Part shown: one piece after another, positions 18,711 through 27,948 of the stretch
How positions within the stretch are numbered: position 1 is the stretch's first letter
How the letters are laid out: each line of letters begins with the position of its first letter
Source of the DNA: Galbibacter mesophilus
Lineage (GTDB): Bacteria > Bacteroidota > Bacteroidia > Flavobacteriales > Flavobacteriaceae
Assembly: GCF_023721415.1 (NCBI RefSeq)
Contig: NZ_JAMQVC010000002.1
Coordinates: 248,001-312,000 of the forward strand
Length of the DNA: 64,000 nt
Reading direction: 5' to 3'
Made by a program: the position numbers and the translations under genes
The notes under the pieces: model-generated
Told to the model about the DNA's origin: nothing
Database searches by the model: none
The model's input: the letters and a program-made list of their open reading frames with translations, nothing else

Positions 18711-19472
18711 TTAGTTACTCTTTTTCAATTCATCTCTAACTTCCAAATAGAATTCGTTAAAATCAGGATGTAAATGAACCAACGTATAATCTTGTCCATT
18801 GGATTTTGTAGTTACTTTTAATCGGTTTCCTTTCACTTCGTACTCCTCTTCAAAAAGTTTTGCAACTGAAGAAGCCCTAAGTGCATTGATTCCCCAATCG
18901 CCTCCGCCGGTTTCAACAGAAACACTTAAGGTTTCATACTTTTTTAAAGTAGCAGCAATTCTATTGATGAAATCCTTCGCATTTTCTTCAACTACGGAAT
19001 TTCCCTCTTTAGAACCGAATAAATATGGATTGTCCATTTTTACAATAATAGAGCCTTTTTCAACTCCAACTTGTGCATTTTCGCCTAAAGTTCTTTTAAA
19101 ATCAGTCAAAACTGCAAAGGCAATTGAATCTTGGGAGCTAAAATTATCTCGAATACCTTTAATTTGATTTTCTTTTTTTCTAAGTGCCTCCAAAGTTCTG
19201 CTAATGCTGTTGGATTGTTGTTTAGAAGTTGATAGGAAGTTATTCATATTGTCTAGAAGCCCCTGGTTTGTTTCCTTCAATGAATTTACTTGAGCATCAA
19301 GACTTGCAATTCTATTTTGGGCAACAGTAAGTTCACCTTCTGTTTTTTTGCAATCTTTTAAGCGCTCGTTCAATTGCGAAACTTCTTCTTTAAGTTCTTT
19401 TCTACTTTGTGCACTAATAGGGGAAGCAATACCTAGCATAACTAAAGCTAGTATGAAAGTAATAATTCTCAT
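18711..19472 (-). CDS. Exported coiled-coil protein with OmpA/MotB-like C-terminal domain
   Basis: A 253-residue exported protein. The signal peptide ends around residue 22 (SPISAQS). Residues about 25-110 are a heptad-rich coiled coil (KELKEEVSQLNERL and similar). Residues about 130-240 resemble an OmpA/MotB-type fold: a strand GSIIVKMDNPYLFGS, a helix ending in VVEENAKDFINRIAATLKKY, and WGINALRASSVAKLF, which corresponds to the LSxxRAxxV helix of OmpA domains. The usual NxxLSxxRA residues are only partly kept, so peptidoglycan binding is uncertain. An alternative start 6 bases upstream is possible. Confidence 0.68.
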   Translation of the reverse strand: MRIITFILALVMLGIASPISAQSRKELKEEVSQLNERLKDCKKTEGELTVAQNRIASLDAQVNSLKETNQGLLDNMNNFLSTSKQQSNSISRTLEALRKKENQIKGIRDNFSSQDSIAFAVLTDFKRTLGENAQVGVEKGSIIVKMDNPYLFGSKEGNSVVEENAKDFINRIAATLKKYETLSVSVETGGGDWGINALRASSVAKLFEEEYEVKGNRLKVTTKSNGQDYTLVHLHPDFNEFYLEVRDELKKSN

Positions 19473-19657
19473 GGTCATTAAATATTTAATAGGTGTATTA
19501 AAACGGAGCACAAGATATTATTTTTTTCAGAATTAGAGATGGTAAGCACAAAATCCTTTAAAATTTTATTGGGTATAAAACGGTATCGTTTTAAATTTAA
19601 CTTTTATACTTTAAAACGATAGATTTTATACTTTTTAATGAAAAAACTAAAATATAA

Positions 19658-19690
19658 TTTGCATTTAATTTTTTAAATCAGTTAAATTTG
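19658..19690 (+). promoter_or_regulatory. his operon promoter
   Basis: TAAATTTG at 19683-19690 is an exact match to the Bacteroidota -7 consensus TAnnTTTG, and TTTG at 19658-19661 provides the -33 element with a 21-base spacer. Initiation would fall near 19696, leaving an untranslated leader of only about 13 bases before the hisL start. Confidence 0.75.
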
Positions 19691-19708
19691 TGGAAGAATA
19701 AAAAAACA

Positions 19709-19765
19709 ATGACAATTTTTACATCACATCATCACCATTTTCATGCATTCGCTCAGGCGAGGTGA
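19709..19765 (+). CDS. hisL: his operon leader peptide
   Basis: An 18-codon frame, too short for ordinary gene calling, encoding MTIFTSHHHHFHAFAQAR and a TGA stop. Five of the 18 residues are His, four in a row (CAT CAT CAC CAT), then Phe and a fifth His. It begins about 13 bases after the predicted transcription start and ends 27 bases before a strong terminator that precedes hisG. This is the layout of the histidine attenuator of enteric bacteria: low charged tRNA-His stalls a ribosome on the His run and frees an antiterminator. The peptide is expected to be a sensor only. Confidence 0.85.
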   Translation: MTIFTSHHHHFHAFAQAR

Positions 19766-19827
19766 TATTGTTATGTGTGATTTTAACATAATAAAAACCC
19801 GTTTGAGTATTCAAACGGGTTTTTTTA
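19731..19827 (+). promoter_or_regulatory. Histidine transcription attenuator with alternative hairpins
   Basis: Three pairings can be drawn. (1:2) ATCACC (19731-19736, inside the His codons) with GGTGAT (19761-19766, at the leader stop), plus TCGC (19749-19752) with GCGA (19757-19760). (2:3 antiterminator) CTCAGGCG-A-GGT (19752-19763) with ACCCGTTTGAG (19797-19807): eleven pairs, two of them G-U, one bulged A. (3:4 terminator) 19793-19806 with 19811-19824. Stalling at the His codons removes 1:2, permits 2:3 and so prevents 3:4. A further small hairpin TTATGT/ACATAA (19771-19791) lies between. Confidence 0.82.
19793..19827 (+). terminator. Attenuator terminator upstream of hisG
   Basis: A perfect 14-bp stem, AAAAACCCGTTTGA (19793-19806) with its complement (19811-19824), a 4-base loop GTAT and a tract of T. 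It lies 52 bases before the hisG start, so it can only act as a regulated terminator. Confidence 0.92.
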
Positions 19828-19878
19828 TGCTCTGTTTTAAATGAAAACAAAAATTGAGAAAGATATTTTTAGAAAGAT

Positions 19879-20742
19879 ATGGAAGAAAGAAAAATAAAAA
19901 TTGCGATTCAAAAATCGGGAAGACTTAACGAAGATTCATTGAAAATTCTTAATGATTGCGGAATTTCCATCGATAACGGAAGAGATCAATTAAAAGCCTC
20001 TGCACGTAATTTTCCATTGGAAGTTATGTATTTAAGAAACGGCGATATACCTCAATACTTAAGGGATGGAGTGGTAGACTTGGCTATTGTAGGTGAAAAT
20101 CTGCTTATAGAAAAAGGGAAGGACCTTCAAATAATAGAAAAATTAAGGTTTTCCAAATGTCGTGTTTCTTTGGCGGTTCCCAAGGGAAGCAGTTTTAAGT
20201 CCGTTAAAGATTTAGAAGGAAAAAAAATTGCAACTTCTTATCCTAATACCGTAAACGAGTTTCTTCAGCGGGAAAAAATAAATGCCGAATTACATATTAT
20301 CAATGGTTCTGTTGAAATTGCTCCAAATATTGGGTTGGCAGATGCTATTGTTGATATTGTTTCCAGTGGAAGTACGCTTTTTAAAAACAACTTAAAGGAA
20401 GCCGTAACTATTTTAAGAAGTGAAGCAGTTTTGGTGGCACCACCGCAAATCGATGAAGCTATTAGACCTATTGTAGAAAAACTTAAATTTAGGATTCAGT
20501 CGGTCTTAAAAGCGCGAGATTCTAAATATGTCTTGCTGAACGCACCGAACGATAAAATTGATAAAATTATTGAGTTGTTACCGGGAATGCGTAGTCCAAC
20601 TGTACTCCCGTTGGCGGAAGAAGGTTGGAGCTCTATTCATACGGTTATCAACAAAGATCGTTTTTGGGAGATTATAGATGAATTAAAAGCTATTGGAGCA
20701 GAAGGAATTTTAGTTTGTCCGATTGAAAAAATGGTTATTTAA
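19879..20742 (+). CDS. hisG: ATP phosphoribosyltransferase (long form)
   Basis: First step of histidine synthesis: joins ATP and PRPP to give phosphoribosyl-ATP. At 287 residues it is the long hexameric form that needs no HisZ. The two-lobed catalytic core covers residues 1-215, with the PRPP-binding loop at DIVSSGSTLFKNNL. The last 70 or so residues (GMRSPTVLPL onward) form the ACT-like domain that binds histidine for feedback inhibition. The gene lies directly downstream of the attenuator, so it is controlled both by transcription and by product inhibition. hisD follows after about 100 bases. Confidence 0.97.
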   Translation: MEERKIKIAIQKSGRLNEDSLKILNDCGISIDNGRDQLKASARNFPLEVMYLRNGDIPQYLRDGVVDLAIVGENLLIEKGKDLQIIEKLRFSKCRVSLAVPKGSSFKSVKDLEGKKIATSYPNTVNEFLQREKINAELHIINGSVEIAPNIGLADAIVDIVSSGSTLFKNNLKEAVTILRSEAVLVAPPQIDEAIRPIVEKLKFRIQSVLKARDSKYVLLNAPNDKIDKIIELLPGMRSPTVLPLAEEGWSSIHTVINKDRFWEIIDELKAIGAEGILVCPIEKMVI

Positions 20743-20845: not shown

Positions 20846-22129
20846 ATGCAGAAAATATATAATCCAGAACAAGAAACGTGGGCCGAACTTTTAAAAAGGC
20901 CAACCAAAACCGTTGAAGATATAGAGGAAACGGTTAATGAGGTGTTTAATGAAGTTAAAACCAAAGGCGACAATGCCGTTAAAAAATACACCAGTTTGTT
21001 TGATGGGGTATCATTGGACAACAATTTGGTTTCTTCAGAAGAAATTGAAGAGGCTACTAAAAAGGTTTCAGAAGCATTGAAAGAAGCAATTTCCATCGCA
21101 AAAGAGAATATTGCTAAATTTCACAAAGCCCAAAAAACAGATAAAGTTTCTGTAGAGACGACCAACGGAGTATCCTGCTGGCAAGAAAAAAGGCCCATTG
21201 AAAAAATCGGACTTTATATTCCTGGGGGAACGGCACCATTGTTTTCTACCATTTTAATGCTGGCCGTACCTGCCCAGATTGCAGGATGTAAAGAAGTTGT
21301 TTTATGTACACCTCCAGACAAAAAAGGAAAGGTAAATCCGGCTATTTTATATGCTGCAGTTTTGTGTGGAGTAGATAAGATTTATAAAGTAGGAGGAATC
21401 CAAGCCATTGCAGCAATGACTTTTGGCACGGAAACCATTCCTAAAGTGTATAAAATATTTGGACCTGGGAATCAGTTTGTAACGGTTGCCAAGCAACTGG
21501 CTACCCGTTTTAATGTTGCTATCGATATGCCAGCCGGACCTTCAGAACTGTTGGTAGTGGCAGATGAAACTGCTAATGCAGCTTATGTCGCTTCCGATTT
21601 ATTGTCGCAAGCGGAACACGGAACCGATAGTCAGGTTATCTTGGTTTCCACTTCGCAGGATTTCTTGGAAGATGTTACTACTGAAATCAATGGGCAAATC
21701 AAAGATCTGCCTAGAGCTGCAATTGCTGAAAAGGCTATTGAAAATTCACGTTTTATTTACTTGGATAGCGATGAAAAAGCATTGAATTTAATCAATGAAT
21801 ACGGTCCGGAACACTTCATTGTGGTTACTGCAAGCGAAGATTTTTATGTGAAGGGTGTAACGAATGCAGGTTCTGTTTTTATTGGTGATTATACGCCGGA
21901 AAGTGCGGGGGATTATGCTTCTGGAACTAATCACACACTTCCGACAAATGGCTATGCCAAACAATACAGCGGAGTGAATTTAGACAGCTTTATGAAGAGC
22001 ATGACTTTTCAGAAAATTTCAAAGGAAGGAATCAAAAATATCGGTCCGGCTATTGAGTTGATGGCGGATGCAGAAGGATTGGGAGCGCACAGGAATGCTG
22101 TTTCGCTTCGTTTAAAAGATATAAAATAG
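20846..22129 (+). CDS. hisD: Histidinol dehydrogenase
   Basis: Oxidises L-histidinol to histidine in two NAD-dependent steps. The 427-residue protein shows the family landmarks: IGLYIPGGTAPLFSTILM, GPGNQFVTVAKQ, DMPAGPSELLVVADE, and SQAEHGTDSQ, which holds the zinc and catalytic Glu/His, and later GPEHF and ASGTNHTLPT. The preceding 103-base spacer contains a small GGCA/TGCC hairpin and a GC-rich patch around 20810-20825 but no promoter that I can defend. hisC begins 2 bases after the stop, so translation is probably coupled. Confidence 0.97.
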   Translation: MQKIYNPEQETWAELLKRPTKTVEDIEETVNEVFNEVKTKGDNAVKKYTSLFDGVSLDNNLVSSEEIEEATKKVSEALKEAISIAKENIAKFHKAQKTDKVSVETTNGVSCWQEKRPIEKIGLYIPGGTAPLFSTILMLAVPAQIAGCKEVVLCTPPDKKGKVNPAILYAAVLCGVDKIYKVGGIQAIAAMTFGTETIPKVYKIFGPGNQFVTVAKQLATRFNVAIDMPAGPSELLVVADETANAAYVASDLLSQAEHGTDSQVILVSTSQDFLEDVTTEINGQIKDLPRAAIAEKAIENSRFIYLDSDEKALNLINEYGPEHFIVVTASEDFYVKGVTNAGSVFIGDYTPESAGDYASGTNHTLPTNGYAKQYSGVNLDSFMKSMTFQKISKEGIKNIGPAIELMADAEGLGAHRNAVSLRLKDIK

Positions 22130-22131
22130 CA

Positions 22132-23178
22132 ATGGTTACAAGTTTCAATATATACACGCTAGTGCGGGAAAACGTTCAAAGAATGAAACCGTACTCTTCT
22201 GCAAGAGATGAATTTAAGGATTTTAAAAAAGACATGGTATTTTTGGATGCCAACGAAAACCCCTTCAACAATGGTGTAAATCGGTATCCAGATCCGCAGC
22301 AATATTCACTAAAAGAACTTTTGGCAAAACAAAAGGGAGTAGAGGTTTCTCAGATTTTACTGGGAAATGGCAGTGATGAGGTGTTGGATTTGCTTTTTAG
22401 GGCTTTCTGTGAACCTAAAAAAGAAAATATAATAACTTTGCCGCCTACGTATGGAATGTATAAAGTTTTGGCAGAAACCAACGCCGTTCAAAATAATGAA
22501 GTGTTGCTTACAGATGAATTTGAGCCCAATGTCGACAAGATTTTGAACACGATAGATGAAAATTCTAAACTTTTGTTTCTCTGTTCTCCAAACAATCCCA
22601 CAGGAAATTCGTTTAAAGTTGAAAACATAAAAAAACTGTTGGAAAATTTTAACGGACTTGTAGTAATTGATGAAGCTTACATCGATTTTTCCAATGAAGA
22701 GAGCTGGGTTGGGCAATTGCGTAATTATCCTAATTTGGTGGTCACCCAAACATTGTCTAAGGCATATGGAATGGCGGGAATTCGTTTGGGTATTTGTTAT
22801 GCTTCGGAAGAAATTATTTCCGTTTTAAACAAGATTAAACCGCCGTATAATGTAAATGAACTAACCCAGCAACGTGCGTTGGAACGTGTAGCAAATGAAG
22901 ATTTTGTGAAAAACGAAATCAATCAAATTTTAAAGGAGCGAACTGTTTTATGTGATTCGTTGCGTGAAGTTAGTTTTGTTGAAAAGATATATGCTTCAGA
23001 TGCAAATTTTATACTAGCAAAAGTGGATGATGCCAACAAACGATACAAAGAGTTATTGGATAAGGGTGTTGTGGTAAGAAACCGTTCTACACAACCACTT
23101 TGCGAAAATACACTTAGATTCACCATTGGAACACCTGAAGAAAACCAAAAATTGATAGCAGCTTTAAAGGAATTGTAA
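22132..23178 (+). CDS. hisC: Histidinol-phosphate aminotransferase
   Basis: A PLP enzyme of fold type I that converts imidazole acetol phosphate and glutamate to histidinol phosphate. The 348-residue protein has DANENPF near residue 40, CSPNNPTGN around 151-159, the aspartate in [10 protein letters not shown], and the PLP lysine in [14 protein letters not shown] (Lys about 210). The start lies 2 bases after hisD and its TAA overlaps the hisB ATG by one base, a tight translational coupling chain. A Met at residue 18 is an alternative start, but the upstream VRENVQR is typical of the family. Confidence 0.96.
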
Positions 23179-24314
23179 TGACAAAAAAAGTACTTTTTAT
23201 AGACAGGGACGGGACGCTTATAAAGGAACCAGCAGATGAACAGATTGACTCGTTCGAGAAATTGGATTTTTATCCGCAGGCCTTTACGTACATGCGTAAA
23301 ATTGCCGAAGAATTAGACTATGAATTGGTTATGGTAACCAATCAAGACGGTTTAGGTACGGAAGTGTATCCAGAAGACACTTTTTGGCCAGTCCATGACT
23401 TTATAATGCGATCTTTTGAAAATGAAGGCGTTGTTTTTAACGAAGTTTTTATCGACCGTACATTCGCAAAGGATAATGCACCCACAAGAAAACCGAATAC
23501 AGGATTGCTGACAAAATACTTTTCTGATGAGTACGATTTAAAAAGTTCTTTTGTAATCGGTGATCGATTAACGGATATTGAATTGGCAAAAAACCTCGAT
23601 GCCAAAGGTATTTTTATAAATGATGAAAGTTATTTAGGCGCCAATGAAATATCTGTAAAGAGAACCGATTTAGATTCGTGTATCGCTTTGGAAACGGCTA
23701 GTTGGAAAGCAATTTATGAGTTTTTAAAATTGGAAAATCGCACGGCGGAAATAAAAAGAAAAACCAACGAAACCGACATTTACATTAAACTGAATCTTGA
23801 CGGTACAGGTAAGAGTGAAATCAGTACAGGTTTGCCATTTTTCGACCATATGTTGGATCAAATTTCCAGACATGGACAAATGGATTTAACCATACAAGTT
23901 AATGGAGATTTAGAAGTAGATGAACACCATACCATTGAAGACACAGCAATTGCTCTTGGAGAAGTTTTCAGTAAAGCGTTGGGTGATAAACTGGGAATTG
24001 AACGCTATGGTTTTTGTTTGCCAATGGACGATTGTTTGGCGCAAGTGGCTATTGATTTTGGCGGAAGAAATTGGCTGGTGTGGGACGCAAAATTTAAAAG
24101 GGAAATGATAGGACAGATGCCTACCGAGATGTTTTATCATTTCTTTAAATCGTTTACGGACGGAGCAAAAGCCAATATAAATATTAAAGCTGAAGGCGTA
24201 AATGAACACCATAAAATTGAAGCTATTTTTAAAGCATTTGCGAAAGCAATTAAGGTAGCAGTGAAAAGAGACTCAGAAAAAATGATTTTACCGTCCACTA
24301 AAGGAATGCTTTAG
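23178..24314 (+). CDS. hisB: Bifunctional histidinol-phosphatase / imidazoleglycerol-phosphate dehydratase
   Basis: A fusion that performs two steps of histidine synthesis. Residues 1-165 are a HAD-type phosphatase with FIDRDGTLI (catalytic Asp 9 and 11) and [11 protein letters not shown]. Residues about 190-378 are the dehydratase with its two manganese-binding HHxxE motifs, [10 protein letters not shown] and [10 protein letters not shown]. The fused form is known from enterics and is common in Bacteroidota. Its ATG overlaps the hisC stop codon. A 111-base spacer follows before hisH; it holds no hairpin or clear promoter. Confidence 0.97.
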
Positions 24315-24425
24315 GTGAGAAATGTAAATTACTGGTAATCATTTTGATAAAATTTAATTCAGAAAATAAGTTATTAGTGATTTTTAACTGAAAAGTTCTA
24401 ATTCCTAATACACAATTTGTAAATA

Positions 24426-25019
24426 GTGAATATAACAATAATAGATTACGGAGCGGGAAATATACAAAGCATAAAGTTTGCTTTTCAGCGGATTGGAATT
24501 GACCCTCAGTTGACGGATGACCCAGAAATTATTAAGAAAGCAGAGAGGGTAATTTTTCCCGGCGTTGGGGAAGCGAGCAGTGCCATGCGAAAATTAAAAG
24601 CAACTGGTTTGGATACCCTTATACCAAAACTTACGCAACCCGTTTTGGGAATTTGTTTGGGCATGCAGCTAATGTGTAATAAATCCGAAGAGGGAAATAC
24701 AAAAGGTTTGGGTATTTTCGATGTGGACGTTAAACGCTTCAGTAATAAGGTGAAAGTTCCACAGATTGGTTGGAATCAAATTTCAAACTTAAAAACAGAT
24801 TTGTTCGAGGGTATTTCCGAAGAAGAATACATGTACTTGGTGCACAGCTATTATGCGCCACTTTGTGCGGAAACCATTGCCACATCGCATTACGAATTGG
24901 ATTATTCATCGGCATTGCGAAAAAATAACTTTTATGGAACGCAATTCCATCCTGAAAAAAGTAGTTTAGCAGGACAAAAGGTTTTAGAGAATTTTTTAAA
25001 GTTAAAAGTACAAGGGTAG
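24426..25019 (+). CDS. hisH: Imidazole glycerol phosphate synthase, glutaminase subunit
   Basis: Class I glutamine amidotransferase that feeds ammonia to HisF. Triad: Cys about 77 in LGICLGMQ, and His about 175 and Glu about 177 in QFHPEKSS. The start codon is GTG at 24426; no ATG is available before the conserved ITIIDYGAGN. The last codons (LKLKVQG-stop) lie inside a heptamer repeat array (25001-25035), so the natural C-terminus seems to have been replaced or extended by repeat DNA. This should not matter because the conserved fold ends earlier. Its partner hisF is separated by three genes. Confidence 0.96.
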   Translation: MNITIIDYGAGNIQSIKFAFQRIGIDPQLTDDPEIIKKAERVIFPGVGEASSAMRKLKATGLDTLIPKLTQPVLGICLGMQLMCNKSEEGNTKGLGIFDVDVKRFSNKVKVPQIGWNQISNLKTDLFEGISEEEYMYLVHSYYAPLCAETIATSHYELDYSSALRKNNFYGTQFHPEKSSLAGQKVLENFLKLKVQG

Positions 25020-25035
25020 AAGTACGAAGTTGTAA
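25001..25035 (+). repeat. Heptamer repeat array, left arm
   Basis: Five consecutive 7-base units: GTTAAAA, GTACAAG, GGTAGAA, GTACGAA, GTTGTAA. The hisH stop codon is inside the third unit. The array is in inverted orientation to the one at 25447-25510, and together they bracket the four-helix-bundle gene. Confidence 0.6.
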
Positions 25036-25045
25036 AAACATCTAA

Positions 25046-25414
25046 ATGAGCCAGAATAATTTACTGGATAGGACAAAAAAATTTGCAATTGATTGTTGGA
25101 ATTTTTGTTTTAAAATCCCAAAATCTAGAGAATACAATGCGTTTGTAAATCAGTTAATACGAAGTTCAAGTTCTGTGGGAGCCAATTACAGAGCATCGCA
25201 GAGAGCCAAATCTACTGCTGATTTTATCAATAAACTAAAAATAACCGAAGAAGAAATTGATGAAAGCATTTATTGGTTAGAAATATTCGAAGCCATTTCG
25301 TCTGATAACACTTCAGAAATAAAAACATTAAAAAAGGAAGGTAAAGAGCTTTTAGCTATAATAGTAGCTTCAATTAATACTTCCAGAAAAAATATGAAAA
25401 AAAAATCGTTTTAA
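25046..25414 (+). CDS. Four-helix-bundle protein (23S rRNA intervening-sequence/S23 family)
   Basis: A 122-residue helical protein of the family named after proteins encoded in 23S rRNA intervening sequences. The characteristic segment FVNQLIRSSSSVGANYRASQRA lies around residues 34-55, followed by KLKITEEEIDESIYWLE. Family members form pentameric four-helix bundles; their function is not established. Such genes are scattered in Bacteroidota genomes. Here it interrupts the his operon between hisH and hisA in the same orientation, bracketed by inverted heptamer arrays, and is probably a passenger insertion. Confidence 0.88.
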   Translation: MSQNNLLDRTKKFAIDCWNFCFKIPKSREYNAFVNQLIRSSSSVGANYRASQRAKSTADFINKLKITEEEIDESIYWLEIFEAISSDNTSEIKTLKKEGKELLAIIVASINTSRKNMKKKSF

Positions 25415-25446
25415 AGTTTTACGAGCGAAGTTAAACGTTCAGTGTA

Positions 25447-25510
25447 TTCTTAACTTCTAACTTCTAACTTCTAACTTCTAACCTCGTACTTTTAATTTCT
25501 AACTTCTAAC
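25447..25510 (-). repeat. Heptamer repeat array, right arm
   Basis: Units on the plus strand: TTCTTAAC, TTCTAAC four times, CTCGTAC, TTTTAAT, TTCTAAC twice. Read on the minus strand the consensus is GTTAGAA, matching the left array in opposite orientation. It ends 8 bases before the hisA start, so it forms most of the hisA 5' region. Confidence 0.85.
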
Positions 25511-25518
25511 TTAATAAA

Positions 25519-26247
25519 ATGAGAATTATCCCAGCGATAGATATAATTGACGGAAAGTGTGTTCGGCTTTCCAAAGGTGATTACAACACCAAAAAAGTGT
25601 ACAACGAGCATCCACTGGAAGTGGCAAAGGAATTTGAAGCTCATGGAATTGAGTATTTACATTTGGTCGATTTAGATGGAGCCAAAAGCAAGCATATCGT
25701 AAATTACAAAGTGTTGGAGGCAATCGCTTCTAAAACAAGTTTGAAAATTGATTTTGGTGGCGGATTGAAATCGGATGAAGATTTGAAAATTGCTTTTGAA
25801 AGTGGCGCGAAACAAATTACTGGAGGAAGTATTGCGGTAAAAGAACCAACAGTTTTTGAGAGTTGGATTGAAAAATACGGTAGTGAAAAAATAATTTTGG
25901 GTGCCGATGCCAACAATGAAAAAGTAGCTGTTTCCGGTTGGTTGGAAGAATCAGAGGAAGAATTACTTCCCTTTATTGCCAAATACCTTCAAAAAGGAAT
26001 AGAATACGTAATTTGTACAGATATAAGCAAGGACGGTATGTTGCAAGGTCCTTCATTCGAACTTTACCAAAAGATTATAGAAAATTCAGAAAATATAAAA
26101 CTGATTGCTTCAGGGGGGATTTCAACTTTTGATGAACTTCCGAAACTGGCAGAAATTGGCTGCGAAGGCACCATTATTGGGAAAGCAATTTACGAAGGTC
26201 GCATCAGCTTAAAACAATTGGAACAATTTATCCTCGGAAATTCTTAA
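25519..26247 (+). CDS. hisA: ProFAR isomerase
   Basis: Converts ProFAR to PRFAR by an Amadori rearrangement in histidine synthesis. A 242-residue (beta/alpha)8 barrel; catalytic Asp 8 in [14 protein letters not shown], second catalytic Asp in [16 protein letters not shown], phosphate-binding loops in DFGGGLKS and IASGGIST. The start lies immediately after the right-hand heptamer array, so its translation-initiation region is built of repeat DNA. Confidence 0.97.
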
Positions 26248-26284
26248 ATTAAGAATGTTTTGAGGATACTTTAAATATGAAATT

Positions 26285-26494
26285 ATGGAAGTAAAAGACA
26301 GTAATGGGAATGTTCTAAATGATGGAGATTCTGTTCATTTAACCAAAGATTTAAAGGTTAAGGGGATGTCTAAGACCCTAAAACGAGGAAATGTTATCAA
26401 GAATATCCGTTTAACGGGTAGTCCTGAAGAAGTAGAATGTAGGGTTGGCAAGAGTACTATCGTTTTAAAAACCCAATTTTTAAAGAAAAGTTAG
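26285..26494 (+). CDS. Stand-alone PhnA/YjdM C-terminal domain protein
   Basis: A 69-residue protein equal to the C-terminal domain of PhnA/YjdM (VKDSNGNVLNDGDSVHLTKDL, then KGMSKTLKRGNVIKNIRL). Full-length YjdM has an additional N-terminal zinc ribbon, absent here. Despite the old name alkylphosphonate utilization protein, no role in phosphonate use has been shown for the domain. The stop codon is immediately followed by the hisF ATG, so it is firmly part of the his transcript and likely coupled to hisF translation. Function unknown. Confidence 0.85.
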   Translation: MEVKDSNGNVLNDGDSVHLTKDLKVKGMSKTLKRGNVIKNIRLTGSPEEVECRVGKSTIVLKTQFLKKS

Positions 26495-27256
26495 ATGCTT
26501 ACAAAGAGAATTATTCCTTGTTTAGATATTAAAAACGGCCGAACGGTTAAGGGAGTCAATTTTGTTGATTTAAGGGATGCCGGTGACCCAGTGGAGTTGG
26601 CAAAGATTTATGCTGAAAACGGTGCGGATGAATTAGTGTTCTTAGATATTTCTGCTACCGAAGAACGTAGAAAAACATTGATAGATTTGGTGTTGCGTGT
26701 TGCAGAACAGGTGAATATACCTTTTACTGTTGGTGGTGGAATTTCTTCCGTTGAGGATGTAGATCTTTTGTTGAAATCGGGAGCAGATAAAGTGTCGATT
26801 AATTCTTCCGCAGTTAAAAATCCGCAACTAATTAATGATTTATCAGCAAAGTTTGGGAGTCAGTGTGTGGTTGTAGCGATTGATGCCAAACAGATAAACG
26901 GGCAATGGAAAGTGCATTTGGTAGGCGGTAAAGTGCCAACAGAACTGGATTTATTCGATTGGGCTAAGGAAGTTGAACAGCGTGGAGCAGGAGAAATTCT
27001 ATTCACCTCCATGGATAATGACGGTACTAAAGATGGTTTTGCAAACGAAGCTTTGGCTCGATTGTCTACAGAATTGAATATTCCCATAATAGCATCTGGC
27101 GGTGCAGGTAAGATCAATCATTTTACGGATACATTTAAAGATGGAAAGGCAGATGCAGCTTTGGCAGCTAGTGTTTTTCATTTTAAAGAAATAGAAATCA
27201 ACGATTTAAAAAAGGAATTAAGAGATAATGGTATAGCTGTTCGTATTCCCTCGTAA
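26495..27256 (+). CDS. hisF: Imidazole glycerol phosphate synthase, cyclase subunit
   Basis: Uses ammonia from HisH to close the imidazole ring, yielding imidazole glycerol phosphate and AICAR. The 253-residue barrel has catalytic Asp 11 in [18 protein letters not shown], a second Asp in [10 protein letters not shown], phosphate loops [10 protein letters not shown] and IASGGAGK, and the HisH-contacting [13 protein letters not shown] segment. The ATG directly abuts the PhnA-domain stop codon. A hairpin-forming repeat follows before hisIE. Confidence 0.97.
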
Positions 27257-27297
27257 ATGCGGACCTAGTTGGGACGAACCTATGTGTTCGTCCGCAT
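27257..27297. repeat. Hairpin element between hisF and hisIE
   Basis: GGACGAAC (27272-27279) pairs with GTTCGTCC (27286-27293) around a 6-base loop; outer ATGC (27257-27260) and GCAT (27294-27297) pair at the base with an asymmetric bulge. No T tract follows, so it is not a simple terminator. It may be a REP-like element or an RNA processing or stabilising hairpin between two his cistrons. Confidence 0.5.
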
Positions 27298-27345
27298 AAA
27301 GCCAGATTCATATCCACCATTCCATAACTATCAAAAAAACAAATA

Positions 27346-27948
27346 ATGCAATTAAATATAGATTTCAATAAAAACAATGATGGGCTTGTCCCGGCGGTCA
27401 TTCAAGATGAAAAGACGAAAAGTGTCTTGATGTTGGGATATATGAATGAAGAAGCCTACCAAAAAACCATTGAAACCAAAAAGGTTACTTTTTTCAGCAG
27501 AACAAAGCAACGACTTTGGACAAAAGGGGAAGAAAGTGGAAACTTTTTAGCACTAAAGGAAATAAAATTAGATTGTGATAACGACACCCTATTGGTGTAT
27601 GTTAATCCGGTGGGGTCCACGTGTCACAAAGGTGATGATACCTGTTGGGCGGAAGAAAATGAAGCCAAATTTGGCTTTTTAAGCGAATTGGAAACCATAA
27701 TTAAAAGCAGAAAAGAAAATGCGGAAGATGAGAAAAGCTATGTAGCCTCATTGTTTCGAAGCGGGATAAATAAAATAGCACAAAAAGTAGGTGAGGAGGC
27801 TGTTGAAACGGTTATTGAAGCAAAAGATGACAATGCTGATTTGTTTTTAAATGAAAGCGCCGACCTGCTTTTTCACTACCTAATTTTGCTACAAGCCAAA
27901 GGTTACACTTTGAAAGATATTGTAAAAGTACTTGAAGAAAGGCATTAA
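27346..27948 (+). CDS. hisIE: Bifunctional phosphoribosyl-AMP cyclohydrolase / phosphoribosyl-ATP pyrophosphatase
   Basis: A fusion for steps two and three of histidine synthesis. Residues 1-105 are HisI, with LMLGYMNEEAYQKT, FFSRTKQRLWTKGEESGN and the zinc-binding Cys/His cluster in GSTCHKGDDTCW. Residues about 110-200 are HisE, an alpha-helical NTP-pyrophosphatase-like domain with KKVGEEAVETVIEA (here AQKVGEEAVETVIEAKDD) and LFLNESADLLFHYLILL. It is the last gene of the his transcript; no convincing terminator is seen before corA. Confidence 0.97.
   Translation: MQLNIDFNKNNDGLVPAVIQDEKTKSVLMLGYMNEEAYQKTIETKKVTFFSRTKQRLWTKGEESGNFLALKEIKLDCDNDTLLVYVNPVGSTCHKGDDTCWAEENEAKFGFLSELETIIKSRKENAEDEKSYVASLFRSGINKIAQKVGEEAVETVIEAKDDNADLFLNESADLLFHYLILLQAKGYTLKDIVKVLEERH

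Follow-up and report, generated by a model that had tools for sequence, protein, structure and literature searches.

We conclude that the leader of the his operon in Galbibacter mesophilus is very probably a ribosome-mediated transcription attenuator that senses charged tRNA-His. Based on sequence, folding and comparison with relatives, a classical attenuator of this kind, as put forward in a preliminary description of the same DNA, is the best reading. The window (the whole stretch of 64,000 nucleotides that was analysed) carries a complete his operon behind the leader, hisG to hisIE by NCBIfam assignment. A short ORF rich in codons for the end product precedes the operon, an intrinsic terminator lies between this ORF and the first gene, and the leader RNA can fold in alternative ways. 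The features, all on the plus strand, are:

19658 to 19661, plus strand: possible -33 element TTTG, 21 nt before the -7 box (from sequence)
19683 to 19690, plus strand: -7 promoter box TAAATTTG, Bacteroidota-type (from sequence)
19709 to 19765, plus strand: leader peptide ORF MTIFTSHHHHFHAFAQAR, 18 codons (from sequence; His-rich peptide conserved)
19720 to 19777, plus strand: 1:2 hairpin, a protector or pause hairpin that includes the His codons (from folding)
19727 to 19744, plus strand: putative regulatory His codons, four consecutive at 19727-19738 and a fifth at 19742-19744 (from sequence)
19751 to 19763, plus strand: strand 2, left side of the antiterminator, overlapping the end of the peptide ORF (from folding)
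19768 to 19794, plus strand: inner hairpin 19768-19776:19786-19794, inside the antiterminator (from folding)
19793 to 19826, plus strand: intrinsic terminator 3:4, stem 19793-19806:19811-19824, T-run to 19826 (from sequence, folding and covariation)
19797 to 19808, plus strand: strand 3, right side of the antiterminator, common to the left terminator arm (from folding and comparison)
19879 to 20742, plus strand: hisG, the first gene controlled (TIGR00070, E 1.5e-55)
20846 to 27948, plus strand: hisD, hisC, hisB, hisH, a four-helix-bundle gene, hisA, hisF and hisIE (from ORFs and NCBIfam)

An AT-rich gap separates hisG from a divergent minus-strand ORF at 18711-19511. The box TAAATTTG and the possible -33 element are what we take, from the Bacteroidota promoter motif, to be the promoter. 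In the window and 78 of the named relatives (the best 80 of 583), the motif TAnnTTTG was sought 8-32 nt ahead of the leader ATG. It is exact in 19 of 79 cases, against a shuffled mean of 1.9, and has no more than one mismatch in 72, against a shuffled mean of 29.2. With the -7 box at 19683-19690, the expected transcription start is close to 19696, which would leave about 13 bases ahead of the peptide. The promoter placed there by the preliminary description is thus borne out as a Bacteroidota-type box, and the start itself as an expectation. No Shine-Dalgarno-like site was seen by eye before the peptide, as had been stated; the term ‘leaderless-like’ initiation is too strong for a leader with a probable 5’ UTR of ~ 13 nt. 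The hisG promoter, which is not of the sigma-70 type, is absent from the output of simple scans, and these give the terminator hairpin only in its minus-strand reading. Within the operon, the four-helix-bundle gene (TIGR02436) occupies 25046-25414, between hisH and hisA.

The leader ORF extends from an ATG at 19709-19711 to a stop codon at 19763-19765, and its 18 codons and five His codons are as first described. When ATG-started short ORFs of 7-40 amino acids were collected from both strands of the window, 5 of 762 proved His-rich, and the leader ORF alone was His-rich with a terminator within 90 nt.

Folding places the His codons inside the 1:2 hairpin at 19720-19777, in agreement with the original claim (-17.2 kcal/mol for 19716-19785). 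The antiterminator, 19751-19763 with 19797-19808, closes around the inner hairpin with 12 pairs and one bulge (-22.8 kcal/mol); it had been given as 11 pairs between 19752-19763 and 19797-19807, so its presence stands and its extent is revised. The terminator has the 14 bp stem already reported (-17.7 kcal/mol), followed by a T-run up to 19826; a further 52 bases separate this run from the hisG ATG. Compared with shuffled sequences, the RNA of 19747-19810, which holds the antiterminator, has a folding z of -5.16, and the entire leader has a z of -5.10. The antiterminator and terminator hairpins are mutually exclusive.

From this arrangement we infer a transcription start, ribosome stalling, termination in the cell and a response to histidine, which would proceed as follows. 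RNA polymerase would begin near 19696 and a ribosome would begin on the leader ORF. If charged tRNA-His were scarce, the ribosome would stall on the His run, leaving strand 2 (19751-19763) free to pair with strand 3 (19797-19808); this pairing would block the terminator, and hisG to hisIE would be transcribed. If tRNA-His were charged, a ribosome at the stop codon would cover strand 2, strands 3 and 4 would pair, and transcripts would end near 19826. With no ribosome on the leader, the 1:2 hairpin would sequester strand 2 and termination would again be favoured. A folding model agrees with this scheme if the ribosome is taken to mask everything up to 15 nt beyond the first base of the A-site codon. 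A stall at each of the four His codons in a row preserves the antiterminator (-22.7 to -22.8 kcal/mol); a stall at the fifth reduces it to -11.9, and with the ribosome at the stop codon none of it remains (0.0). Window folding and the partner-swap test described below together point to a stalled ribosome that frees an antiterminator exclusive of the terminator. As soon as strand 4 is available, terminator pairing is energetically roughly on a par with the antiterminator or better, which means that the switch has to work kinetically; the known his and trp attenuators likewise choose kinetically between the two structures.

How well comparison supports the helices differs from one to the next. 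In the partner-swap test, own pairing is set against partners exchanged among loci, with kinship uncontrolled. The antiterminator gives z 5.1 for 32 distinct family arms and z 8.8 for 49 other arms (0/5000 each), and z 2.4 for 27 named arms (77/5000); the 1:2 hairpin gives z 7.9 for 78 named, 6.1 for 61 family and 8.6 for 53 other loci (0/5000 each). Kinship was controlled by pairing closest relatives that differ in a strand and exchanging the partners. The antiterminator then shows no significant covariation signal in named, family or other-family close pairs (own better:worse:tie 8:3:25, 10:3:15 and 10:5:12, p 0.09 to 0.3). The 1:2 hairpin scores 20:3:3 in other families (p 5e-4) and is unsupported by close pairs inside the family (17:13:9 named, 19:11:0 family).

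An alignment of the window with 53 named relatives (A2) provides a third comparison. For the terminator, 97.4% of cells are paired and 5 of 12 pairs have changed on both sides, with 0/500 shuffles as good. For the antiterminator, 91.8% are paired with nearly invariant sequence, a level that 46/500 shuffles reach. The 1:2 helix, drawn on one sequence type, is paired in 62.0% of cells (0/500 shuffles); its covariation score is reached by 7/500, and one slid version scores higher. We therefore regard the terminator as firmly supported by comparison and the 1:2 hairpin as supported outside the family, with weak support within it. For the antiterminator, support comes from its conserved pairing, its layout and its folding, and not from covariation with kinship controlled. 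Covarying hairpins, proposed earlier as a check, are thus found for the terminator and, in other families, for 1:2; inside the family 1:2 falls short, and the antiterminator contributes conserved pairing.

The element is widespread in the class Bacteroidia and patchy beyond it. Four overlapping draws of genomes were searched for hisG, which turned up in 49 of 60 family genomes, 78 of 148 genomes of the order, 68 of 149 of the class and 128 of 148 of the phylum. The loci compared are the upstream DNA of 48 family matches besides the window, together with loci from the wider draws; as the latter are mostly the best-scoring, sampling is uneven and covers a subset of the hisG matches. An ORF of 7-40 amino acids located no more than 300 nt ahead of hisG counted as a leader peptide if three His fell within six residues. 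By this test the window’s family has a leader peptide at 61 of 63 hisG loci, other families of its order have one at 20 of 36, other orders of its class at 31 of 33 (in 18 of 20 families) and other classes at 24 of 44 (in 5 of 19 families). The two family misses are a contig end (L031) and an ORF with two His (L035), and all 16 misses in the order belong to one family, f16. Peptide and terminator occur together in 61, 19, 27 and 14 of these loci, respectively. Over 176 distinct loci, 136 have the peptide, 121 the peptide and terminator, 15 a peptide without a recognised terminator, and 40 are negative for the peptide by this test. Conservation in relatives, on which the preliminary description had staked its reading, is thus present. 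In control sequences the peptide test is positive in 4/156 reverse complements, 1/155 and 5/154 segments farther upstream and 0/90 segments inside hisG, and peptide with terminator in 0, 1, 0 and 0 of these sets.

Among the named relatives (best 80 of 583), 79 have both peptide and terminator, the latter without a score cut, and all 79 terminator arms are of a single CC(C/T)G(T/C)(T/C)TG-like type. The remaining one, L193, has by eye a TTG-started ORF with two His. Both parts were likewise seen by eye in 7 of 7 genomes examined from the genus, the window’s own included. In other orders the layout is the same and the sequence different, for example GGCTTACC arms. Presence throughout the phylum was considered and rejected: 16 of 20 further loci lack the peptide, all 16 from other classes.

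Two families stand out. The f16 genomes are 0.6 Mb, endosymbiont-sized, and their 16 loci (L056-L058, L060, L062, L063, L065-L067, L069, L073-L078) all keep hisG without a leader peptide by our test. In f89, from another class, ten loci (L131-L133, L137, L145-L147, L151, L154, L155) have long His-rich hisG leader peptides, such as HHAHHGHHHIHVQ, with a recognised terminator in 2 of 10. These leaders possibly control at the level of translation.

The f89 leaders bear on a different account of the window, in which the peptide itself acts by specific nascent-chain arrest, or in which only hisG translation is controlled, without His-codon sensing. The scarcity of terminators in f89 would suit it, as would the C-terminal QA(R/S) of the leader peptide, common in the window’s family. 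However, QA(R/S) is encoded by the DNA of antiterminator strand 2, and this accounts for the conservation of the motif; elsewhere in the class the C-terminus varies while the His codons and terminator stay, so we consider this account very unlikely. Still harder to credit is an ordinary terminator beside a chance ORF with no regulation. Although intrinsic terminators are common between genes, the upstream gene here is divergent and needs none at this place, and peptide and terminator recur together before hisG as counted above and are rare in control windows. We give this reading practically no weight.

Another alternative is lateral acquisition of a proteobacterial his leader. In enterobacteria this leader has a His-rich peptide, 1:2, 2:3 and 3:4 hairpins and a terminator before hisG. 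The leader described here shares all of these with the enterobacterial one (RF00514), and is unlike it in its sub-threshold RF00514 score, the lack of a Shine-Dalgarno-like site, the Bacteroidota -7 box and a 5’ UTR that is probably ~ 13 nt long. In favour of acquisition, the highest bit score among 37 weak Rfam matches in 19600-19900 belongs to RF00514 (His_leader), whose alignment is full-length (E 0.0023). Its 30.8 bits are set against a gathering score of 49, and an unrelated Streptococcus sRNA model precedes it by E-value (0.00078). No Rfam family reaches its gathering score in the window, where an existing his leader had been suggested as a search target, or in 20 loci scanned; RF00514 is above threshold in 0 of 40 relatives, with an E of up to 0.001 in 2 of 40. 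Old descent or repeated origin is indicated instead, because arm sequences differ between orders while the layout is constant, and lateral acquisition appears extremely improbable. No T-box model matches at gathering in the window, and none is among the 37 weak matches in 19600-19900. A genome of the same genus, G467, has sub-threshold RF00514 matches at L158 and L160 (40.4 and 36.5 bits), away from its hisG, which are possibly other attenuators. The tRNA-His-sensing attenuator thus remains our preferred reading.

The genome of the window carries further leaders of this type. A Trp-rich peptide, MRTFRTNTWWWSNLRKTS, precedes a PF04715 gene that we take as trpE (L249) and a Phe-rich one, MLANGYIWNFYFFFFYFFNKRTGRL, precedes pheA (PF00800; L248), each with a terminator next to it; by eye, the same holds for an Ile/Val-rich peptide, MKIANKNIIIISIVINSS, before ilvD (TIGR00110; L251). 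No such leader was seen by eye at the second PF04715 locus of this genome (L250). Across the family, 29 of 31 PF04715 loci examined have a Trp leader with terminator, and 14 of 30 PF00800 loci have a Phe leader; four of the PF00800 misses touch contig ends. Covariation in the trp antiterminator gave no significant signal in the family (z -0.2).

Many relatives have an additional segment, which we call D, between the terminator and hisG. It is complementary to the left terminator arm and loop; in L049, for example, GTTTGAGTAAATCA pairs with TGATTTACTCAAAC. Other loci with D include L012, L034, L092 and L052, the sequence being unrelated in the last two. At a score cut of 20, D is found in 39 of 63 family loci and 51 of 79 named loci, and by gapped score in 13 of 54 other loci. 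Against permuted partners, its pairing yields z 11.8 in the family and 12.8 in the named set (0/10000 each), and 7.7 among the others (49 distinct arms, 0/5000). Using one locus per distinct target, the score is 19.5 against a permuted maximum of 17.45 (n=42), and z is 8.3 for n=31. The 24 family loci below the cut give no signal (z 0.3, 4039/10000). Close pairs favour own over swapped partners (own:swapped:tie) by 21:2:1 among named D-bearers (p 6.6e-5), 31:7:1 among named pairs without selection on D (p 1.2e-4), 22:3:5 in the family (p 1.6e-4) and 20:4:3 elsewhere (p 1.5e-3). In 46 of 51 named loci the distance from the end of D to the hisG ATG is 13-21 nt; the minimum is 13 nt, and outliers extend to 101. 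Median energies in named D-bearers are -10.9 kcal/mol for 2:3, -13.3 for 3:D and -16.5 for 3:4.

Being transcribed after the terminator, D could act only in readthrough mRNA. Together with a pairing strength between those of antiterminator and terminator, this suggests that D could take strand 3 from strand 2 after polymerase escape and so affect hisG translation or mRNA stability, a serious possibility that we hold as tentative. If true, such a latch would write the decision of a transcription attenuator post-transcriptionally into the finished mRNA. The latch reading concerns relatives rather than the window’s copy, since none of the seven genomes of the genus has a recognisable D: the search in the window was negative (p 0.47; score 13 against a cut of 20), as were those in the six other genomes (genus scores 9-16). 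At other leaders in the family D also gave no signal (trpE z 0.7, n=29; pheA z -1.1, n=14).

Hiding of the hisG start codon, considered as a general function of D, is unsupported, as the AUG of D-bearers pairs much as it does with a scrambled spacer (unpaired 0.42 vs 0.43 in the named set, n=51, p 0.73; 0.38 vs 0.42 in the family, n=39, p 0.19). The AUG is less open than with the scrambled spacer where hisG starts with ATGAGTA (0.29 vs 0.42, n=29; 0.30 vs 0.40, n=32) and more open at other hisG starts (0.59 vs 0.44, n=22; 0.72 vs 0.49, n=7). In favour of start hiding, the AUG of family D-bearers is less open than that of non-bearers (0.38 vs 0.60, p 1.8e-4); the corresponding values in the named set are 0.42 and 0.46 (p 0.38). 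Covariation between D and the hisG start has z 3.6 in the family (0/10000) and z 2.0 in the named set with one locus per start (n=33, 280/10000).

Leaders that act both during transcription and afterwards are known, for example the TRAP-controlled trp leader. The Bacillus subtilis vmlR leader, as presented in the accessible parts of its description, is a precedent for this dual action, as proposed for D (PMC9226507). Neither of the two is a His-peptide leader, and translation control by D is itself only a proposal.

The preliminary description was aware of no experimental demonstration in Bacteroidota. A structured hisG 5’ element, shared with other genera of the Flavobacteriaceae and lacking Rfam hits, is already in print in a Flavobacterium psychrophilum transcriptome (2021), along with clues to leader-peptide attenuation at amino-acid operons of that species; the accessible parts of this source stop short of demonstrating the mechanism (PMC9723704). 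That element belongs to the same gene, and the same parts give no peptide, alternative structures or spread beyond the family (PMC9723704). For Bacteroides, leader-peptide-like sORFs are mentioned in a paper whose main text lacks ‘histidine’ and ‘hisG’ (PMC7366714). In the portion available of a study on the Bacteroidota superphylum and its his genes, attenuation is described for S. enterica and E. coli (PMC8305728), and other studies, likewise available in part, treat leaders including His leaders of Proteobacteria or Firmicutes (PMC4833913, PMC2965389, PMC9413887). The Firmicutes peptides are likewise His-rich, with attenuator hairpins, outside Proteobacteria; however, they come from another phylum and few lineages, and no word beginning Bacteroid- appears in the text of either source (PMC9413887, PMC2965389). 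Among the titles and abstract starts of the openly accessible literature searched, there was no other Bacteroidota his leader and no description of D, a sharply testable RNA feature.

What is new here is the class-wide spread, the helix-by-helix comparative tests, the Trp, Phe and Ile-Val leaders in the same genome, and strand D in relatives. Leader-peptide attenuation is known mainly from Proteobacteria, and Bacteroidia generally initiate translation without Shine-Dalgarno pairing. Our findings suggest that amino-acid operons of the class Bacteroidia are commonly controlled by leader-peptide attenuation. Because attenuation needs ribosome and RNA polymerase to keep pace, these leaders may also provide a natural reporter of transcription-translation coupling in the phylum.
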